Origin: Phycisphaerae bacterium
GTDB taxonomy: Bacteria > Planctomycetota > Phycisphaerae > Phycisphaerales > SM1A02
Assembly (NCBI GenBank): GCA_016795065.1
Contig: JAEUIU010000054.1
Coordinates: 1-64,000, forward strand
Length of the DNA stretch: 64,000 bases
Direction: 5' to 3'
This document shows, in pieces, positions 1-9,537 of the stretch (the first letter of the stretch is position 1; the number at the start of each line of letters is the position of its first letter). The notes beneath the pieces are model-generated. The model searched no databases. It saw only the letters and a list, made by a program, of their open reading frames with translations, and was not told the origin of the DNA. Both the position numbers and the translations under genes were made by a program.

Positions 1-128
1 AGCCTCACTCGGAGCCCTCACGGGCTCCTCGTCCTTGTGGTGAGCCACGGTGTGGCTCTCTGACGGTTGCATCGCCAGAGCGATGCTGGATTCGGAGAGG
101 GTCTCACCTGTGTTCACCGGGGGACAGA
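1..128. repeat. left arm of perfect 128-bp inverted repeat
   Basis: Bases 1-128 are the exact reverse complement of 871-998; identity stops at 129/870. The repeat begins at the first base of the window, so it may extend further left. The arm contains three consecutive perfect hairpins: 11-17 with 22-28 (loop TCAC), 42-48 with 52-58 (loop GGT) and 69-75 with 80-86 (loop CAGA), each with a 7-bp stem. This suggests the end of a mobile element or a fold-back repeat rather than a simple terminator. No transposase is visible between the arms. Confidence 0.9.
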
Positions 129-217
129 TTCTTCCAGAGGAGAACACGGGTTGGGGAAAGCAGTCTGACTCTTGGCGACTCTTTGCTCGAACGTGAAGCC
201 AAGAGGAGATGCCATCC

Positions 218-237
218 TATAGGACAAACGTCCTATA
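218..237. promoter_or_regulatory. operator-like palindrome
   Basis: TATAGGAC at 218-225 and GTCCTATA at 230-237 form an 8-bp inverted repeat around a 4-base spacer, inside the segment enclosed by the long inverted repeats. It has the size and symmetry of a dimeric repressor site, and it lies about 180 bases upstream of the small coding remnant at 416. The function is inferred from shape only. Confidence 0.35.
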
Positions 238-415
238 ACAGGACGCGGCAGTAGTCGGCTTCCTCTTCATTTTCTCATCGCTCAGCAATGGGTGACCAGC
301 TACGAGGTCGGCAGTCGGCGCGACTTTTTCGGGTCCGAGCGAACACCAGTTGCTCGTTTGGGGAAAGTTCGTATGATGTGGAGCGATACGGGTTGATACG
401 TCTCAGGGCAGCAAC

Positions 416-466
416 ATGGAATACCAGCTCAAAGACGCGGCGGAGCGAATCGGTGTCGCGTCCTAA
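416..466 (+). pseudogene. possible excisionase/MerR-like N-terminal stub
   Basis: A 16-codon reading frame encodes MEYQLKDAAERIGVAS and then stops. The pattern (basic/acidic start, then D-A-A-E-R-I-G-V) is what the first helix of Xis or MerR-type helix-turn-helix proteins looks like. The frame ends exactly where the methyltransferase-like frame becomes recognisable, so it may be recombination debris. It could equally be chance; 16 residues are too few to be sure. Confidence 0.25.
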
Positions 467-747
467 AGCCTGCCCGGTACATGTGCGTCATCGTGAGCGA
501 CTTCAGGCACAAGTCTCGGTTCTATCCGTTCCACTCGGATCTATTCGCCCGACTCGAACAGCACGAACTGTGCCTCAAAGGCATCAAGATCCTGTATCAA
601 TCCCACAAGGCGATCTTCCCGTACGGTTACCTCCCGCAAGCCGATTGTGACGCCATCGCTGTTCATGTGCTCAAGCAAGACTCCAGTCCGCGCATCGGCA
701 TGCCGCCGTGGTTTCGCGAGCCGATGGGGCAGTGGGACCTTGCTTGA
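463..747 (+). pseudogene. DNA methyltransferase fragment (decayed)
   Basis: The frame reads LKPARYMCVIVSDFRHK, then RFYPFHSDL, then KGIKILYQSHK and FPYGY. From memory this series matches the C-terminal half of phage and accessory N4/N6 DNA methylases (R-V-L-K-P-x-x-Y-M-C-V-I-V-x-D-F-R). The catalytic N-terminal part is absent, the frame is open only from about 463, and similarity is lost after about 630 although the frame runs to 747. An 88-aa ORF could start at ATG 481, but it could not be a functional enzyme. It lies between the inverted repeat arms and reads as phage- or element-derived debris. Confidence 0.55.
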
Positions 748-870
748 AGACGAGAGATGAGGCCGCACGTCTCGTCGCGGACGGGCTCATCAGTGCCGCC
801 CCGCGACAACACTCCAACTGAGACGAGAAGCAGCTCGAAGCCATTACAAACTACAGAACAGAAAACGAAT

Positions 871-998
871 TCTGTCCCCCGGTGAACACAGGTGAGACCC
901 TCTCCGAATCCAGCATCGCTCTGGCGATGCAACCGTCAGAGAGCCACACCGTGGCTCACCACAAGGACGAGGAGCCCGTGAGGGCTCCGAGTGAGGCT
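871..998. repeat. right arm of perfect 128-bp inverted repeat
   Basis: This is the exact reverse complement of 1-128, including the three 7-bp-stem hairpins. It continues directly into a further potential stem, 995-1003 with 1047-1055 (GGCTGGTTT / AAACCAGCC), and into short direct repeats around 1072-1090. The two arms bracket 742 bp of unique DNA. Confidence 0.9.
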
Positions 999-1422: not shown

Positions 1423-2071
1423 CTATCCCTCGCTCTTCGGCGGCACTTCGATCCAGAACCAGCCGCGGAGATCTCCGTCCTGGAAACCTGTCGCCTGGTC
1501 GGCCGGGTAGTGCGTTGCAAGAGCAGTTCGAACGTCCGCTGCCAAGGTGTCGGCCGGCCCATGGCAGGCGACGCACATGGACCCCAAACGAATCGGCAAG
1601 ATCACGCCGAGGGTACCGTCGGGAGCGCGCAATGCCTGGGGTGCCGTGGGCCTTGTAGCGAGGAGCGGCGCGGCCCATGCGGGTGCGGCGTTGGCAGGAT
1701 TGCGGAGACGAACGCCGGTTCGCCCGATTCGTACGCCTGATTCTTGGGCGACCTCGGCGGCGATCCGTGGGGCCTGCGTTCGGCAAACGTCGATTGCCCC
1801 GGCGGGGCCGCCGCTTCGACCTTCGGCCTGGTCAGAGGGCGTGCCAACGGCCTCGCCAAGCGCCCCCATCAGCCTCAGCGCCAAGGTGTCTTTTGCTTCG
1901 ACCGCTCGTGCATATGCCCGGGCGTCCGCCGTCGGAGATTCCGAGAGGGCGAGCTGCCCCTGCGTCAAGTCGCTCCCACGCAACACGCTCGTTCGCACAG
2001 CTCGTCAAGGCTGCGCCGACCACCGATATCCCGATCAAACCCCTGGCCAACACCAGAACGCTGTGACCCAT
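1423..2071 (-). CDS. DUF3365 (Tll0287-like) heme-site lipoprotein, apparent frameshift
   Basis: The main frame (1998 down to 1423) has the DUF3365 pattern: a helical N-terminal part, AIDVC, VRIGRT, LRNPANA, then the heme-type motif CVACH (residues 142-146 counted from the GTG at 1998) and a C-terminal DLRGWFWIEVP. The good start lies in another frame: ATG at 2071 follows GAGGAGG by 7 bases and encodes a lipoprotein signal with lipobox A-L-T-S-C. The two frames meet between about 1965 and 1998, so a one-base indel or sequencing error is likely. The product would be an exported, lipid-anchored sensor or heme protein. It is the last gene of a minus-strand run after the LamG-dockerin gene. As read, the gene is broken unless translation starts at GTG 1998 without a signal peptide. 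Confidence 0.75.
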
Positions 2072-2129: not shown

Positions 2130-3251
2130 TCAGCTCGTCCAGCCCCCCAACACCGTCGCAAGGTCAGCTCCGTCGACGATGCCGTTTCCGTCCAGGTCCG
2201 CCGAACAGCCGCTGCACGCGCCCCACGCTCCAAGCAGCAACGCGAGATCCGCTCCGTTGACGGTCCCATCACCATTGAGGTCGCCCAGCAGCGAGCTGGC
2301 GATGGGCGCGGTGTTCGTCGGATTCGCGCTCGCCAACGCCCATTCGCCGTTGCCGGGCACGCCGGCGATCAGCAGTCCCTGCGGCCCGCCTGATCCGCTC
2401 GTGTCGGCGATCGCGGTACCGCCGCCCTCCTCGAAGCGATAGGAGCCGACCAACCCCGGCGTACCGGCCGGGAGCACCTTGGCTCGATCCTCGGCGATCG
2501 CGAGCGGCTCGCGGGCGATCGACCAGATGCGAAGCTCGTCAAACCAGCCGTCCAACGACGGATAGTCGGGGCCGGCATCGTGCTTCTCGGCGCCGAGCAC
2601 GAGGTACGGGTTCCATGGCGTCACCGAGTTGGCCACACCGCCGTTCGGATAGCTGATGTTGTCGTTGGACAGGAACACCTGCGATTCGAAGTCGAGGTCG
2701 CCGTCCACCACGATGCGCTTGCGACCTGTCGCGACCTGGCGCACGCAGGCGACGTGATGCCAAGCGCCATCGAGCACCATGACGCTTCCCTCGATCGTGC
2801 TTTCGGTGTCGTTCCCGCTCGGAGGATCCCCGCGGCCCGTGCCGAAACGCACCCGACCTCCGGCGAGCGAAATGCCCCAATCGGCATCGGAGCTGCCCCA
2901 GATATCCCGGTCGACGACGATGTTCCCGTCAATCCACGCCGGGCCACTCACCTCGACATCGCCGCCGAAACTGGGCGTGGCATTGTCGACGAGCCATCCG
3001 CGCACCCAGAATTCGATCGTGAACGATCCAACCCCCACGTCGCACACCGTGCTCCCGTCGGGCCCTCGGCTGTTGTCGTCAATCGCGATGCGGACCCGGT
3101 CCTGCTGGTCTGTCCCGGTCCCGTGAAAGCGAAGGGCGGCCACCGATTGGGCAACCGCCGCTGGTGCCACGCTCGCACCACCAAGGCACGCGATCGCCGC
3201 GTGTATGCACGCCCTGATCAGACTGCTCGTTCGCCCGCCCGTGCGACACAT
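2130..3251 (-). CDS. secreted LamG-like domain protein with C-terminal dockerin
   Basis: The start at 3251 is chosen because GGAAGGAG sits 8 bases upstream and a signal peptide follows (MCRTGGRTSSLI ... APAAVAQS); the frame is open further upstream. The 373-aa product has a concanavalin/LamG-like domain (FTIEFWVRG, then DGAWHHVACVR and GWFDELRIW), as in glycan- or surface-binding extracellular proteins. The last 50 residues hold two EF-hand-type loops, DLNGDGTVNGADLALLLGAWG and DLDGNGIVDGADL, the dockerin-like module typical of Phycisphaerae exported proteins. It lies 50 bases downstream of the EamA gene and 58 upstream of the DUF3365 gene. Confidence 0.85.
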   Translation of the reverse strand: MCRTGGRTSSLIRACIHAAIACLGGASVAPAAVAQSVAALRFHGTGTDQQDRVRIAIDDNSRGPDGSTVCDVGVGSFTIEFWVRGWLVDNATPSFGGDVEVSGPAWIDGNIVVDRDIWGSSDADWGISLAGGRVRFGTGRGDPPSGNDTESTIEGSVMVLDGAWHHVACVRQVATGRKRIVVDGDLDFESQVFLSNDNISYPNGGVANSVTPWNPYLVLGAEKHDAGPDYPSLDGWFDELRIWSIAREPLAIAEDRAKVLPAGTPGLVGSYRFEEGGGTAIADTSGSGGPQGLLIAGVPGNGEWALASANPTNTAPIASSLLGDLNGDGTVNGADLALLLGAWGACSGCSADLDGNGIVDGADLATVLGGWTS

Positions 3252-3301
3252 GCCGAGTGCTCCTTCCGACAGAGTGTGCATGCGATTCGCGGGAAGGCCA
3301 C

Positions 3302-3811
3302 TCACGATCCCTGACCGTCTGCCGCCGACGAGACCTCCGGCTTCGCCGTTGTCGTTCCTCCGGTCAGAAGCACCACCCCAGTGAGAATCAGGGCGACCGC
3401 CATCGCCTTGCGGACTTCGAAGGGCTCGCGCAGCACGGTCCAACCCAGAATCACCGCCACCGCTGGCGCAACGCAGAAGGCGATCGGCTTGACCTGCGAC
3501 ACCGGGCCGAACTTCAACGCCAGATAGAAGGCCACCATGGCCGCTGCCCCTGCCAATACACCGGACCCAAGGACCAGCTTCGCCAGCACCGCCTTGTCCG
3601 CGCTCAGCCAGTTCTTAGGCTCAGGGGACGACCCGAAGATGCCGTCCTTGGCGATGAACCAGACCAACCAGATGAGCGGCAGCCCGACCAGCGATCGCAC
3701 GGCGATGGCGGTGAGCGGGCCGACTTCCTTCGAATGCAGCACGCTCTTCGTGCAGACTTCCCCCACTCCCCAGCACACACCGGCCAGCAGCGCGAACAGA
3801 ACGGCTTTCAT
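3302..3811 (-). CDS. EamA/DMT-family transporter, single EamA domain
   Basis: This 169-aa protein has five predicted membrane segments and a single EamA unit; full DMT transporters carry two. Typical features are the start MKAVLFALLAGVCWG, R-S-L-V-G-L-P-L in the second segment, and the terminal L-x-E-P-F-E-x-R-K-A-x-A-V-A-L-I-L-x-G-V region. Single-domain members usually work as dimers exporting small metabolites; the substrate cannot be told. GAGGAGG lies 5 bases before the ATG. It is probably the first gene of the minus-strand run 3811-1423. Confidence 0.85.
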   Translation of the reverse strand: MKAVLFALLAGVCWGVGEVCTKSVLHSKEVGPLTAIAVRSLVGLPLIWLVWFIAKDGIFGSSPEPKNWLSADKAVLAKLVLGSGVLAGAAAMVAFYLALKFGPVSQVKPIAFCVAPAVAVILGWTVLREPFEVRKAMAVALILTGVVLLTGGTTTAKPEVSSAADGQGS

Positions 3812-4104: not shown

Positions 4105-7100
4105 ATGGACCTTGCCGCTACCGCTCGTCGCTCGCTTTGCACGCTTCTCCTCACCGCTGGCATCAGCGCACAGGCGACGGCAGCCGAGAAAACCTGGGAC
4201 GGCGGCGGCGGCAACCTCTCGTGGAACAACGCCGCCAACTGGAACCCCGACGGACTGCCGACCGCAGCGGACGACGTGATCATCAACATCCTCGGCTCAA
4301 CCGAGACGATCTCGATTCCCAGCGGCACGGCTCTCTGCAACACGCTGAGTTCCAGTGAGAACATCACCGTCTCGGGCACCCTCAACGTCGCCAGCCCCTC
4401 GACGATCAACGGACTGATCACCGTCACCGGCACCCTCACCGGGACCGGCGACCTTGTGCTCAACGGCGGCCTCACGCTCTCGACAGGCGTCCTCTCCGGA
4501 GCGTCGACGGTCACGATCCCCGCCGGCGCCACCATCGCGTTCACGACGAGCACCAACGCCATCACGTCGCGCAGCGTCCTGATCGCCGGCACCGCCCTGT
4601 GGTCGGCAGCACAGCTCAACATGAGCAACGCGTCGATCCAGGTCCTGCCGGGGGGCGTTTTCCATGCGGATGCACCCGCCGCGGCGTTGGTTCAGGCGAG
4701 CGGAACGAATGCCTTCATCAACGATGGCACCCTCGTCAAGTCAAGCGCGTCCAGCTCGATCACGGTCCCCCTGACCAACAATGGGGCGATCCAGGTCAAC
4801 GGCGGAACACTAACGCTGGCCGGCTCGGGAGCGAACAACGGGTCGATTGAGGTCAATGCAGGCGGAACGCTCTCCGTCGCGATTGCCCGAACGTGGAGTG
4901 TCGGCTCCCTGCTGGGCGGCTCCGGGCAGATCGTCTTCAACAGTGGCACGCAGGTCTTCCCGGCCGACACCTTCGCCCCCAACGGAAGCTTTCTGGTCAA
5001 CAGCGGCACGAACGTCACCCTGAACAGCGCCTTCGCCCCCGCGACATTGGCGAGCCCTGTCGCAGGCACGCTGAACCTCCAGGCGGACCAAACCTTCCCC
5101 GCCGTCACCGTCACCGGAACCCTGACCGGAACGGGTGACTTCACCTTTCCCAGCGGCCTGACGCTCTCGAGCGGCAACCTCTCGGGAGAGGCAGCCGCTC
5201 TCATTCCGGTGGGAGCGACCCTTACCTTCGACACGAATACGAATTCGATCGCATCGCGGGACATCGACGTGGCCGGCGAGATCCAATGGAACGCGGGTCA
5301 GGTGAACTGCAGCAACGTCACGCTGCACGTCCTTCCGGATGCGGTCTTCCACGCCAACGCGTCCTCGACGTTGGCCGTGGCCACCGGCGCCAATCTGCTC
5401 CTCAACGAGGGCACCATTCTCAAGTCGAGCGGTGCTGGCACGATCGGCATTCCATTCACGAACGACGGCGTCGTCCAGATTGACGGCGGCTCGCTGACGA
5501 TCTCCGGCTCCGGTTCGAACAGTGGAAGCCTTCACGTGGCCGCAGGCGCGACCCTGTACTTCCTCACGAGCCGCACGTGGAACGCCGGTTCGACGCTCGG
5601 GGGTGCAGGGGCAATCGTGTTCACCAGCGGTTCCCAAGTCTTCCCTTCCGGCGCCTTCACCCCGGCCGGAAGCTTCCAGATCAACAGCAGCGCGAACGTG
5701 ACCCTGAACGCTGGATTTGCCCCTGACACGCTCGCCAGCCCGGTCGCCGGCACGCTGAGCGTGAACGTGGATCAGTCCTTCCCCGCCGTCACCGTGACCG
5801 GCACACTCGCCGGCTCGGGCAATTTCGTCTTTCCAAGCGGACTGACGCTTGCCGGCGGCGCCCTCTCGGGTGCGGCCACCGCCACGATTCCCAGCGGAGC
5901 AACGCTCTTCTTCCACACCTCCACCAACTCCGTCGTCTCCCGCAGCATCGATGTCGCCGGCGAGGTGGTGTGGAGCGCCGCTCAGATCAACTTCAACAGC
6001 AGCTCGATGCACATTCTCCCGGCTGGGGTCTTCCATGTGGAGGCCCCATCGGTTCTCGCCGTTTCGGCCGGCGTCAACACGATCGTCAACGACGGCACGA
6101 TCGCCAAGTCCGCAGCGTCCAGCTCGATCAACGTTGCCCTCACCAACAACGCCTCCATTGACCTCGACGGCGGAAGTCTGACCCTCAATGGCTCCGGAAC
6201 CAACAACGGCATCATTGACGTCGGTGCCGGTGCGACGCTCGTTGTGAACTCGACCCGCACCTGGGCTCCGGGATCTGCTCTCACCGGCCCCGGGCTGATC
6301 CAGTTCAATAACGGCACCCAGTCCTTCCCGAGCGGGACGTTTGCTCCGAGCGGGACGTTCAGCGTCCTTTCAGGTTCGACCGTCACGCTCAACAATGGCT
6401 TCCCGGTTGCCGCCTTGCTCAGTCCGCTCGCCGGAACGCTCAACGTCAACGCGTCACAGACGTTTCCCGCTCTCACGGTCACCGGCGCGCTCGGCGGCAC
6501 GGGCGACCAGCTCTTTCCCAACGGGCTGACGCTTGCGGGAGCCAACCTGAACGGTGCGGCAACGACCACCATTCCCGCTGGCGCGACCCTCACCCTAGGG
6601 ACGACGCCCAACCTGATCAGCGGCCGGACGGTGGATGTCGGCGGCGAGGTGCAATGGACCGGCGCCCAGATCAACTTCCAGAACGCCTCGATGCACATCT
6701 TGCCGGGAGGCGTCTTCCACGCGTCCGCGAGCGCGACGTTCGCGATCGCCGCGGGCACGAACACCTTCCTGAACGAGGGCACCTTCGACAAGTCGAGCGG
6801 CGTCACCACGATGAGTGTCCCCTTCACGAACGCCGGCACCATGAGCGTGACCGGCGGTTCGATCGCGGTCACCGGTTCCTATACCCAGACGGCCGGCGCG
6901 ACGCTCATCACCGGAGGCAGCTTCACCAAGACCTCCGGCTCTGTCGCCTTGCAGGGCGGCGTGCTTGGCGGAACCGGAACGCTCACCGGTTCGGTCAGCC
7001 AAACCGGCGGCACGATCGCGCCCGGGCTTTCGCCGGGTCAATTCACGATCACCGGAACCGTCACGCAGAACGCGACCAGCACCCTCGACATCGAGCTCGG

Positions 7101-9537
7101 CGGACTGACCCCGGGATCGCAGCATGACCGGCTGGTCGGAAACGGAACCATCACGGCAGCGGGCACGCTCCGCCTGAGTTTCGTTGACGGCTTTGTGCCA
7201 CACGGCGGCGACAGCTTCACCGTCGCCACCGCCGCGACCCTCAACGGCGGATACACGTCGGTCGATGTCCTCGGGTACCCCGACTGCGTGGCCAGCGCCG
7301 CGAAGGTCGGCAACACGATCGTCGTGACGATCGAGAGCGTTCCACCGACGGCGCTCTGCAAGAACATCGATGTCAACCTCAGCGCCGCGGGCAACGCGAC
7401 GATCACCCCCGCGATGATCGACAACGGCAGCAGCGACAATTGCGAGGTGGCGTCGCTCGAGCTCGACACGTCGAGCTTCACCTGCGCCGACCTTGGACCG
7501 AACATGGTCACGCTGACGGTCAGGGACCATGCCCAGAACAGCTCGACCTGCCAGGCGATCGTGACCGTTCACGACGTGACGGCCCCGGTCATCATCGGCT
7601 TCCCTGACGACGCCTCGCTGGGTTGCCCGAGCCAGATTCCGGCCCCCAACACGTCGCTCGTCACCGCGACCGATGCCTGCGGACCGATCACGATCACGCA
7701 TCAGGGCGACGCCGGCAATGGCGGCGCCGGCTGCGCCGCCAGTCCGCTCGTCGTTACCCGCACCTACCGGGCCACCGATGGAAGCGGGAACTTCGCCGAG
7801 GAAACCCAGATCTTCCTGGTGATCGACGTCACCGCCCCGAGCTTCGTCGGCTTCCCGGCAAATCAGTCGCTCGGTTGCCCGGGCGACGTTCCACCCGCCA
7901 ACCCCGGTGCCTTGACCGCCACCGACGGCTGCGGCGGGGGTGTGGCCATCACCCACGTAGGGGACGTCAGCAATGGCGGCAACGGCTGCCCCGAGTCACC
8001 CTTGGTCGTCACTCGCACTTACCGGGCGACCGACGCATGCGGGAACGCGACCACCCAAGCCCAGGTGTTCACCGTCATCGATTCGGCAGACCCGACGATC
8101 GATTCGTTCCCCGCCGACGCGACGCTGGAGTGCATCGGCGATCTTCCCGCGCCGGATACGGCTCTCGTTGTGGCCAGCGACACCTGCGACCCGGCCGTCG
8201 TCGTGACCCACGAGGGCGACACGTTCAACGGCGGCAGTGGCTGCGTTGCATCACCCCTGCTCGTCAGCCGAACCTACCGGGCCGCCGACGCCTGTGGCCA
8301 CGCCATCGAGCGGGTGCAGACGTTTACCGTCATTGATCTCTCGGCCCCAGAGATCACCTCGCCGCCCCCCGGCGGCTCCGCTCAGGCAGAATGCGGCACC
8401 GCCGTACTTCCCGACTTGCGCGAGACCCTCTCTGCCGTCGACAACTGCCTTGAGCCGACGGTGCTGCAGTCGCCCACACCCGGGACCCTCCTCGGCATCG
8501 GGAACCACGTCATCACCTTCTCGGTTTCCGACGCGTGCGACAACGTCACGGTGACGACGGCCGAGTACGTGGTCTCCTCCGACACCTGCGTTGCCGACGT
8601 GAACAACAACGGCATCGTCGATGCGACGGATCTTGCCCTCGTTCTCGGAGCGTGGGGAGCGTGCCCCGGATGCTGCGCGAACATCAGCGGCGGCGAGAAC
8701 GTCGACGCCGTCGATGTGGCCATCTTGCTGGGGGCGTGGGGACCGTGCCCCGGCGGCGATCAGCAGGCGGCCAGCGAGGCGCTCAACGGGAAGGACGGGA
8801 GCTCGATGGCCGATCGTATCGACGGCCGTGAGACCACCCCCGCCCCGACGACAGGCGCCGCTCCCGGAACACGCGGGGATCCCCGAGGTTCAGGTGCTGC
8901 GACCGATGACCACTCCTCAGCGTCACCGACCCCCCTGCCCACGCCAGGCGACTCAGCCGTCCCGACACCTCGCGTCATCCGCGCCGACGAGCGCACCGGC
9001 CTTCTCCTCATTGATGGGGACCTGCTGCTTGAGTCGTGTGACCGGGTGGTCATCCGAGTTTCCGAAGGGCGAAGTGACCTCATCATCGTGACCGGGATCG
9101 CTCAGCTTGCCGGGACACTCGTCATCGAACATCTGGATCCTCCACACGACCCCATCGCAGATGCGATGTACCGGACGACCCTCTGCATTCCGGTGCTCGC
9201 GGCAAACGAGCTACGAGGTGCATTCGAAGCAGTGACAGAACAGGAAGGAGATGGAACGCCGGTTCCGCTCGATTCCTCACGCCTCCGGACAACTGCTCAG
9301 GTATGCTCCGTGTACCTCACCCGGCCCCTCGACGAAGACGCGGCGCCTCCGGCTCCGGTTGACATCGACGGTGATGGGTTCACAGGCGTGTTCGATCTCG
9401 TGGTCATGTTCCAGGCCATGGGAAGAGACAGCGACGACCTCGCCCGCCGGGCCGACCTCGACGCCGATGGTGCGATCACCACGGCAGACCTCGTCGAGCA
9501 GGCCCGACGGCTGGGGTTCGCCGCGCGCCTGCCTTGA
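4105..9537 (+). CDS. giant secreted beta-repeat protein with HYR-like and three dockerin-like modules
   Basis: The 1810-aa protein begins with a signal peptide (cleavage near ATAAEK, about residue 27) and a WNNAANW segment seen at the start of autotransporter-type beta-strand repeat proteins. Residues about 150-920 contain four imperfect units of roughly 228 aa (at nucleotides about 4574, 5260, 5945 and 6630), rich in G, T, S and N and predicted to form a beta solenoid. An autotransporter-like G/T module follows (about 925-1080), then one HYR-like and three closely similar 84-aa Cys-containing modules (about 1165-1415), another HYR-like module, and a two-loop dockerin near 1493 (LVLGAWG, then LLGAWG). 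A P/T-rich linker leads to a further domain and a third, diverged EF-hand pair at the C-terminus (DIDGDGFTGVFDL, DLDADGAITTADL). No transmembrane anchor or beta-barrel is seen. Likely cell-surface or adhesin-like; function unknown. Confidence 0.85.
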   Translation: MDLAATARRSLCTLLLTAGISAQATAAEKTWDGGGGNLSWNNAANWNPDGLPTAADDVIINILGSTETISIPSGTALCNTLSSSENITVSGTLNVASPSTINGLITVTGTLTGTGDLVLNGGLTLSTGVLSGASTVTIPAGATIAFTTSTNAITSRSVLIAGTALWSAAQLNMSNASIQVLPGGVFHADAPAAALVQASGTNAFINDGTLVKSSASSSITVPLTNNGAIQVNGGTLTLAGSGANNGSIEVNAGGTLSVAIARTWSVGSLLGGSGQIVFNSGTQVFPADTFAPNGSFLVNSGTNVTLNSAFAPATLASPVAGTLNLQADQTFPAVTVTGTLTGTGDFTFPSGLTLSSGNLSGEAAALIPVGATLTFDTNTNSIASRDIDVAGEIQWNAGQVNCSNVTLHVLPDAVFHANASSTLAVATGANLLLNEGTILKSSGAGTIGIPFTNDGVVQIDGGSLTISGSGSNSGSLHVAAGATLYFLTSRTWNAGSTLGGAGAIVFTSGSQVFPSGAFTPAGSFQINSSANVTLNAGFAPDTLASPVAGTLSVNVDQSFPAVTVTGTLAGSGNFVFPSGLTLAGGALSGAATATIPSGATLFFHTSTNSVVSRSIDVAGEVVWSAAQINFNSSSMHILPAGVFHVEAPSVLAVSAGVNTIVNDGTIAKSAASSSINVALTNNASIDLDGGSLTLNGSGTNNGIIDVGAGATLVVNSTRTWAPGSALTGPGLIQFNNGTQSFPSGTFAPSGTFSVLSGSTVTLNNGFPVAALLSPLAGTLNVNASQTFPALTVTGALGGTGDQLFPNGLTLAGANLNGAATTTIPAGATLTLGTTPNLISGRTVDVGGEVQWTGAQINFQNASMHILPGGVFHASASATFAIAAGTNTFLNEGTFDKSSGVTTMSVPFTNAGTMSVTGGSIAVTGSYTQTAGATLITGGSFTKTSGSVALQGGVLGGTGTLTGSVSQTGGTIAPGLSPGQFTITGTVTQNATSTLDIELGGLTPGSQHDRLVGNGTITAAGTLRLSFVDGFVPHGGDSFTVATAATLNGGYTSVDVLGYPDCVASAAKVGNTIVVTIESVPPTALCKNIDVNLSAAGNATITPAMIDNGSSDNCEVASLELDTSSFTCADLGPNMVTLTVRDHAQNSSTCQAIVTVHDVTAPVIIGFPDDASLGCPSQIPAPNTSLVTATDACGPITITHQGDAGNGGAGCAASPLVVTRTYRATDGSGNFAEETQIFLVIDVTAPSFVGFPANQSLGCPGDVPPANPGALTATDGCGGGVAITHVGDVSNGGNGCPESPLVVTRTYRATDACGNATTQAQVFTVIDSADPTIDSFPADATLECIGDLPAPDTALVVASDTCDPAVVVTHEGDTFNGGSGCVASPLLVSRTYRAADACGHAIERVQTFTVIDLSAPEITSPPPGGSAQAECGTAVLPDLRETLSAVDNCLEPTVLQSPTPGTLLGIGNHVITFSVSDACDNVTVTTAEYVVSSDTCVADVNNNGIVDATDLALVLGAWGACPGCCANISGGENVDAVDVAILLGAWGPCPGGDQQAASEALNGKDGSSMADRIDGRETTPAPTTGAAPGTRGDPRGSGAATDDHSSASPTPLPTPGDSAVPTPRVIRADERTGLLLIDGDLLLESCDRVVIRVSEGRSDLIIVTGIAQLAGTLVIEHLDPPHDPIADAMYRTTLCIPVLAANELRGAFEAVTEQEGDGTPVPLDSSRLRTTAQVCSVYLTRPLDEDAAPPAPVDIDGDGFTGVFDLVVMFQAMGRDSDDLARRADLDADGAITTADLVEQARRLGFAARLP

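Follow-up and report, generated by a model that had tools for sequence, protein, structure and literature searches.

The perfect inverted repeat that opens the 64-kb window (the whole 64,000-nucleotide stretch of DNA analysed here) has the look of an assembly dead end more than of DNA that moves or flips. Its two arms are 100% complementary in reverse, with 742 nucleotides between them and without a single mismatch, exactly as an earlier note on this DNA had claimed, and the complementarity ends abruptly at 129/870 (TTCTTCC vs. ATTCGTT). Base 1 of the window is also base 1 of contig C33 (106,352 bp), and the arm thus coincides with the contig terminus. The caveat raised in that note, an assembly edge or chimera, is favoured by the evidence, the repeat abutting the contig's opening base. 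On balance, the repeat is most likely to have arisen at the contig tip, by fold-back or mis-extension. The elements concerned are:

1-128, no strand: left arm, opening contig C33, and a probable dead-end mirror of 871-998.
129-870, no strand: spacer, 56% G+C vs. 65% for the window, with no intact gene recognised.
871-998, no strand: right arm, with three short hairpins (913-930, 941-957 and 971-988), running on into the remaining contig.

Within the 64-kb window no further exact inverted repeat is as long as 24 bp, and 1.28 Mb of the genome yields no further one as long as 45 bp, so that the arm pair is not a chance occurrence. That this single case happens to sit at a contig tip speaks for an artefact; as a counterpoint, real repeats too tend to lie at contig ends. 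The outer edge of the right arm seems not to be a natural boundary, since position 998 falls within the stem of the next hairpin (GGCTGGTTT/AAAACCAGCC, starting at 996, as read by eye), which the arm edge cuts. With base 1 being the first base of the contig, 998 is merely the mirror of the contig end.

The draft genome (5.0 Mb, 89 contigs, 95% complete) carries a signature of the way in which it was assembled. When 98 contig tips were compared, five pairs were found to dovetail by exactly 141 bp, and an exact end overlap at the largest k is the signature left by MEGAHIT or metaSPAdes (COBRA paper, PMC10914622). From this overlap, the assembly is probably of the short-read de Bruijn type with k=141. 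The simple idea that the arm length equals the assembly k was rejected, the former being 128 and the latter 141. In the favoured account, 871-998 would have been copied in reverse and attached to the spacer at its left edge, either through a small number of fold-back (inverted chimeric) reads or because the assembler extended the contig end wrongly; the mirror copy would halt before 141 bp, the length from which the graph would join it to the original. The spacer, including its truncated methyltransferase fragment, may on this account be authentic foreign DNA in a decayed state, lying next to 871. We infer both the absence of the mirror copy from the chromosome and the route by which it was made. 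The likeness to an inverted-chimera or dead-end contig tip lies in the mirror copy at the first base, its perfect identity and a length below the assembly k; the difference is that none of 60 other long tips examined here has such an inverted copy, and mirror-copy artefacts are therefore not common in this assembly. A literature search for inversions at MEGAHIT contig tips gave nothing specific.

Other tips of the assembly have features of their own. At two of them (locus L150, contig C21, 1-209; locus L174, contig C55, 1-74) the terminal 70 and 74 bp, both lengths below k, duplicate neighbouring sequence exactly and in direct orientation, and look like genuine repeats. Dispersed repeats of the CACAGAGG type are present in other tips and in intergenic regions, and a 300-bp "palindrome" at the tip of C32 was dismissed as a masked run of N.

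How a de Bruijn assembler would treat such a repeat was modelled by taking seven arrangements of arm, spacer and flank and building the k=141 unitigs of each, in a toy graph without depth-based pruning and without the assembler's local re-assembly. A real repeat of 128 or 138 bp with a covered left flank was assembled straight across, while a 188-bp repeat split the contig at the arm, and a left copy extending beyond 141 bp also split it; mixing both orientations of the segment split the contig at both arms. A covered true left neighbour together with fold-back reads gave a branch where the arm meets the spacer, and the arm was dropped from the contig. The contig as observed (spacer, right arm and beyond, with a short tip mirror) arose only when the data stopped at or near base 1. 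On these outcomes the left arm would be a dead end in the graph whatever the explanation, active inversion at an appreciable frequency is disfavoured by the unbroken contig across 871-998, and a real repeat would have to coincide with a coverage gap. The artefact account has a predicted cost of its own: it would also need thin coverage at the left of the spacer, because a well-covered true left neighbour would exclude minority fold-back reads from the contig.

A genuine recent local inverted duplication around a decayed foreign spacer, with read coverage ending at the left arm or inside it, is a possible but distinctly less probable explanation. Such a duplication could have come about by template switching, or from a hairpin-rich intergenic repeat present as two identical copies, and both the perfect identity of the arms and the sharp end at 129/870 would suit a recent event. 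Other inverted pairs of intergenic repeats exist in the genome, for instance a 44-bp perfect pair (CCTCCCCTCGACGAGCTCGGGACAGGG...) that flanks a gene on contig C2 with a gap of 870 bp (locus L137, 9354-10311), and the direct copies at the tips of C21 and C55 likewise resemble genuine repeats. Against this, nothing else among the inverted repeats of the genome sample approaches the arm in length. In addition, since repeats of 128 to 138 bp with a covered left flank would be assembled across and arms longer than 141 bp would have led to a contig break at the arm, a failure of coverage would have to coincide with the arm itself. If the repeat is genuine, it is most likely an ordinary recent inverted duplication.

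The original proposal for this region was a non-autonomous mobile element or an invertible segment with 128-bp terminal inverted repeats. Arms around a short debris spacer of lower G+C fit this in outline, but the proposal is left unsupported by the searches and we regard it as improbable. Within its own genome the arm is confined to C33, at one locus. It had no match in 60 relatives, no second locus thus being found in the genome or among them, and it gave only chance-level matches, up to about 60 bp, in 400 genomes sampled from the order; plasmid and phage records held nothing. Exact searches, which would miss diverged copies, found a 21-bp core of the arm absent from the GTDB genome collection and a 17-bp core absent from viral contigs. 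A 22-bp exact match in the same-genus genome G001 was set aside as a chance coding similarity (IEAFFKD) within an unrelated ORF.

Nor is an enzyme for movement or inversion apparent nearby. Matches to the tyrosine (PF00589) and serine (PF00239) recombinase families are on contigs C22, C23, C30 and C54 and none is on C33, and the genome has no Y1 transposase, this being the one transposase family searched. A MITE or other non-autonomous transposon would resemble the present arrangement in that a short spacer with no intact gene lies between inverted arms; it differs in that the locus here is single, no target-site duplication is visible (the contig having no sequence to the left of base 1), no partner transposase was identified and the arm edge lies inside a hairpin stem. 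Similarly, less than 1 kb between perfect inverted repeats recalls an invertible ("phase-variable") segment, but the contig is without a recombinase match, no promoter or gene layout was identified that flipping would switch, and the assembly has no sign of a second orientation, its continuity across the right arm (871-998) speaking against coexisting orientations. That this is a recently moved or switched single-copy element of a little-studied bacterial lineage, one whose long, perfect arms are hairpin-rich and which carries foreign debris but no enzyme of its own, is very unlikely. The case illustrates that perfect inverted repeats starting at the first base of a contig should be withheld from catalogues of mobile elements, and that the assembly k, once known, provides a quick graph argument on which real arrangements a contig rules out.

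The spacer holds the following short features:

about 218-237, no strand: perfect 8-bp stem TATAGGAC-AAAC-GTCCTATA, operator-like, read in the sequence.
416-466, plus strand: short reading frame MEYQLKDAAERIGVAS followed by a stop, Xis/MerR-like by eye only and too short for a profile search.
457-630, plus strand: internal/C-terminal fragment of a DNA methyltransferase, recognised by homology and truncated on both sides.

The methyltransferase fragment reported previously was borne out by homology, as was the description "decayed debris" insofar as it applies to this doubly truncated frame. The product of 457-630 matches an N4/N6-type DNA methyltransferase in its C-terminal part, and truncation on both sides is indicated by the abrupt end of homology at each end. 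Its relatives, found in a same-family genome (where the full-length ORF carries PF01555) and in several phyla, match at 45-63% over about 58 residues, with one further, more distant match at 36%; most are in other phyla. Searched against PHROGs, NCBIfam and Pfam, the fragment itself could be assigned to no meaningful family, tblastn of the fragment against plasmids and phages found nothing, and an IMG/VR scan with the stub-plus-methyltransferase peptide recovered no relative. Padding or extending the 416-466 stub to 20 residues gave no profile match. The 8-bp palindrome noted before (CCTATAGG) is indeed present, within the longer TATAGGAC-AAAC-GTCCTATA stem, the core of which (TAGGACAAACGTCCTA, 220-235, also written TAGGACNNNNGTCCTA) occurs once in the whole genome.

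These contents bear on a further alternative, namely that all of 1-870, the left kilobase, is foreign DNA joined chimerically to the contig. The lower G+C of the spacer would fit such a join, as would a methyltransferase whose relatives are chiefly in other phyla, and the same-genus genome has nothing similar, the arrangement to the left of its EamA gene being different. However, genes acquired by ordinary transfer have this same appearance, a relative of the methyltransferase is also found in the same-family genome, and the contig crosses the 870/871 join without a break, so that we think a chimera of this extent improbable.

Ordinary genes follow to the right of the repeat:

1423-1998, minus strand: Tll0287-like protein.
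2130-3443, minus strand: LamG/dockerin protein.
3302-3811, minus strand: EamA transporter.

The EamA gene of G001 is syntenic with 3302-3811 of the window, and is adjoined in that genome by an integron integrase (TIGR02249, E 4e-132; locus L199, G001:C72, 974-2548, minus strand). An integron cassette was considered for the present region and rejected, as 1-2549 is without attC-like core sites (RYYYAAC / GTTRRRY). Farther along, 4105-9537 encodes a repetitive, secreted-looking protein of 1810 residues in which dockerin-like stretches were noticed by eye towards the end; no such protein turned up in G001 in the interval flanked by the syntenic neighbours. A conserved RNA was likewise rejected, all Rfam matches being sub-threshold and located around a terminator-like hairpin at 1243-1310. 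Finally, the motif GGGGACAG at the inner ends of the arms prompted consideration of a RAYT/REP-type origin, which was rejected for want of a Y1 transposase; the motif itself recurs at just two further sites in the window, 9839 and 16497.
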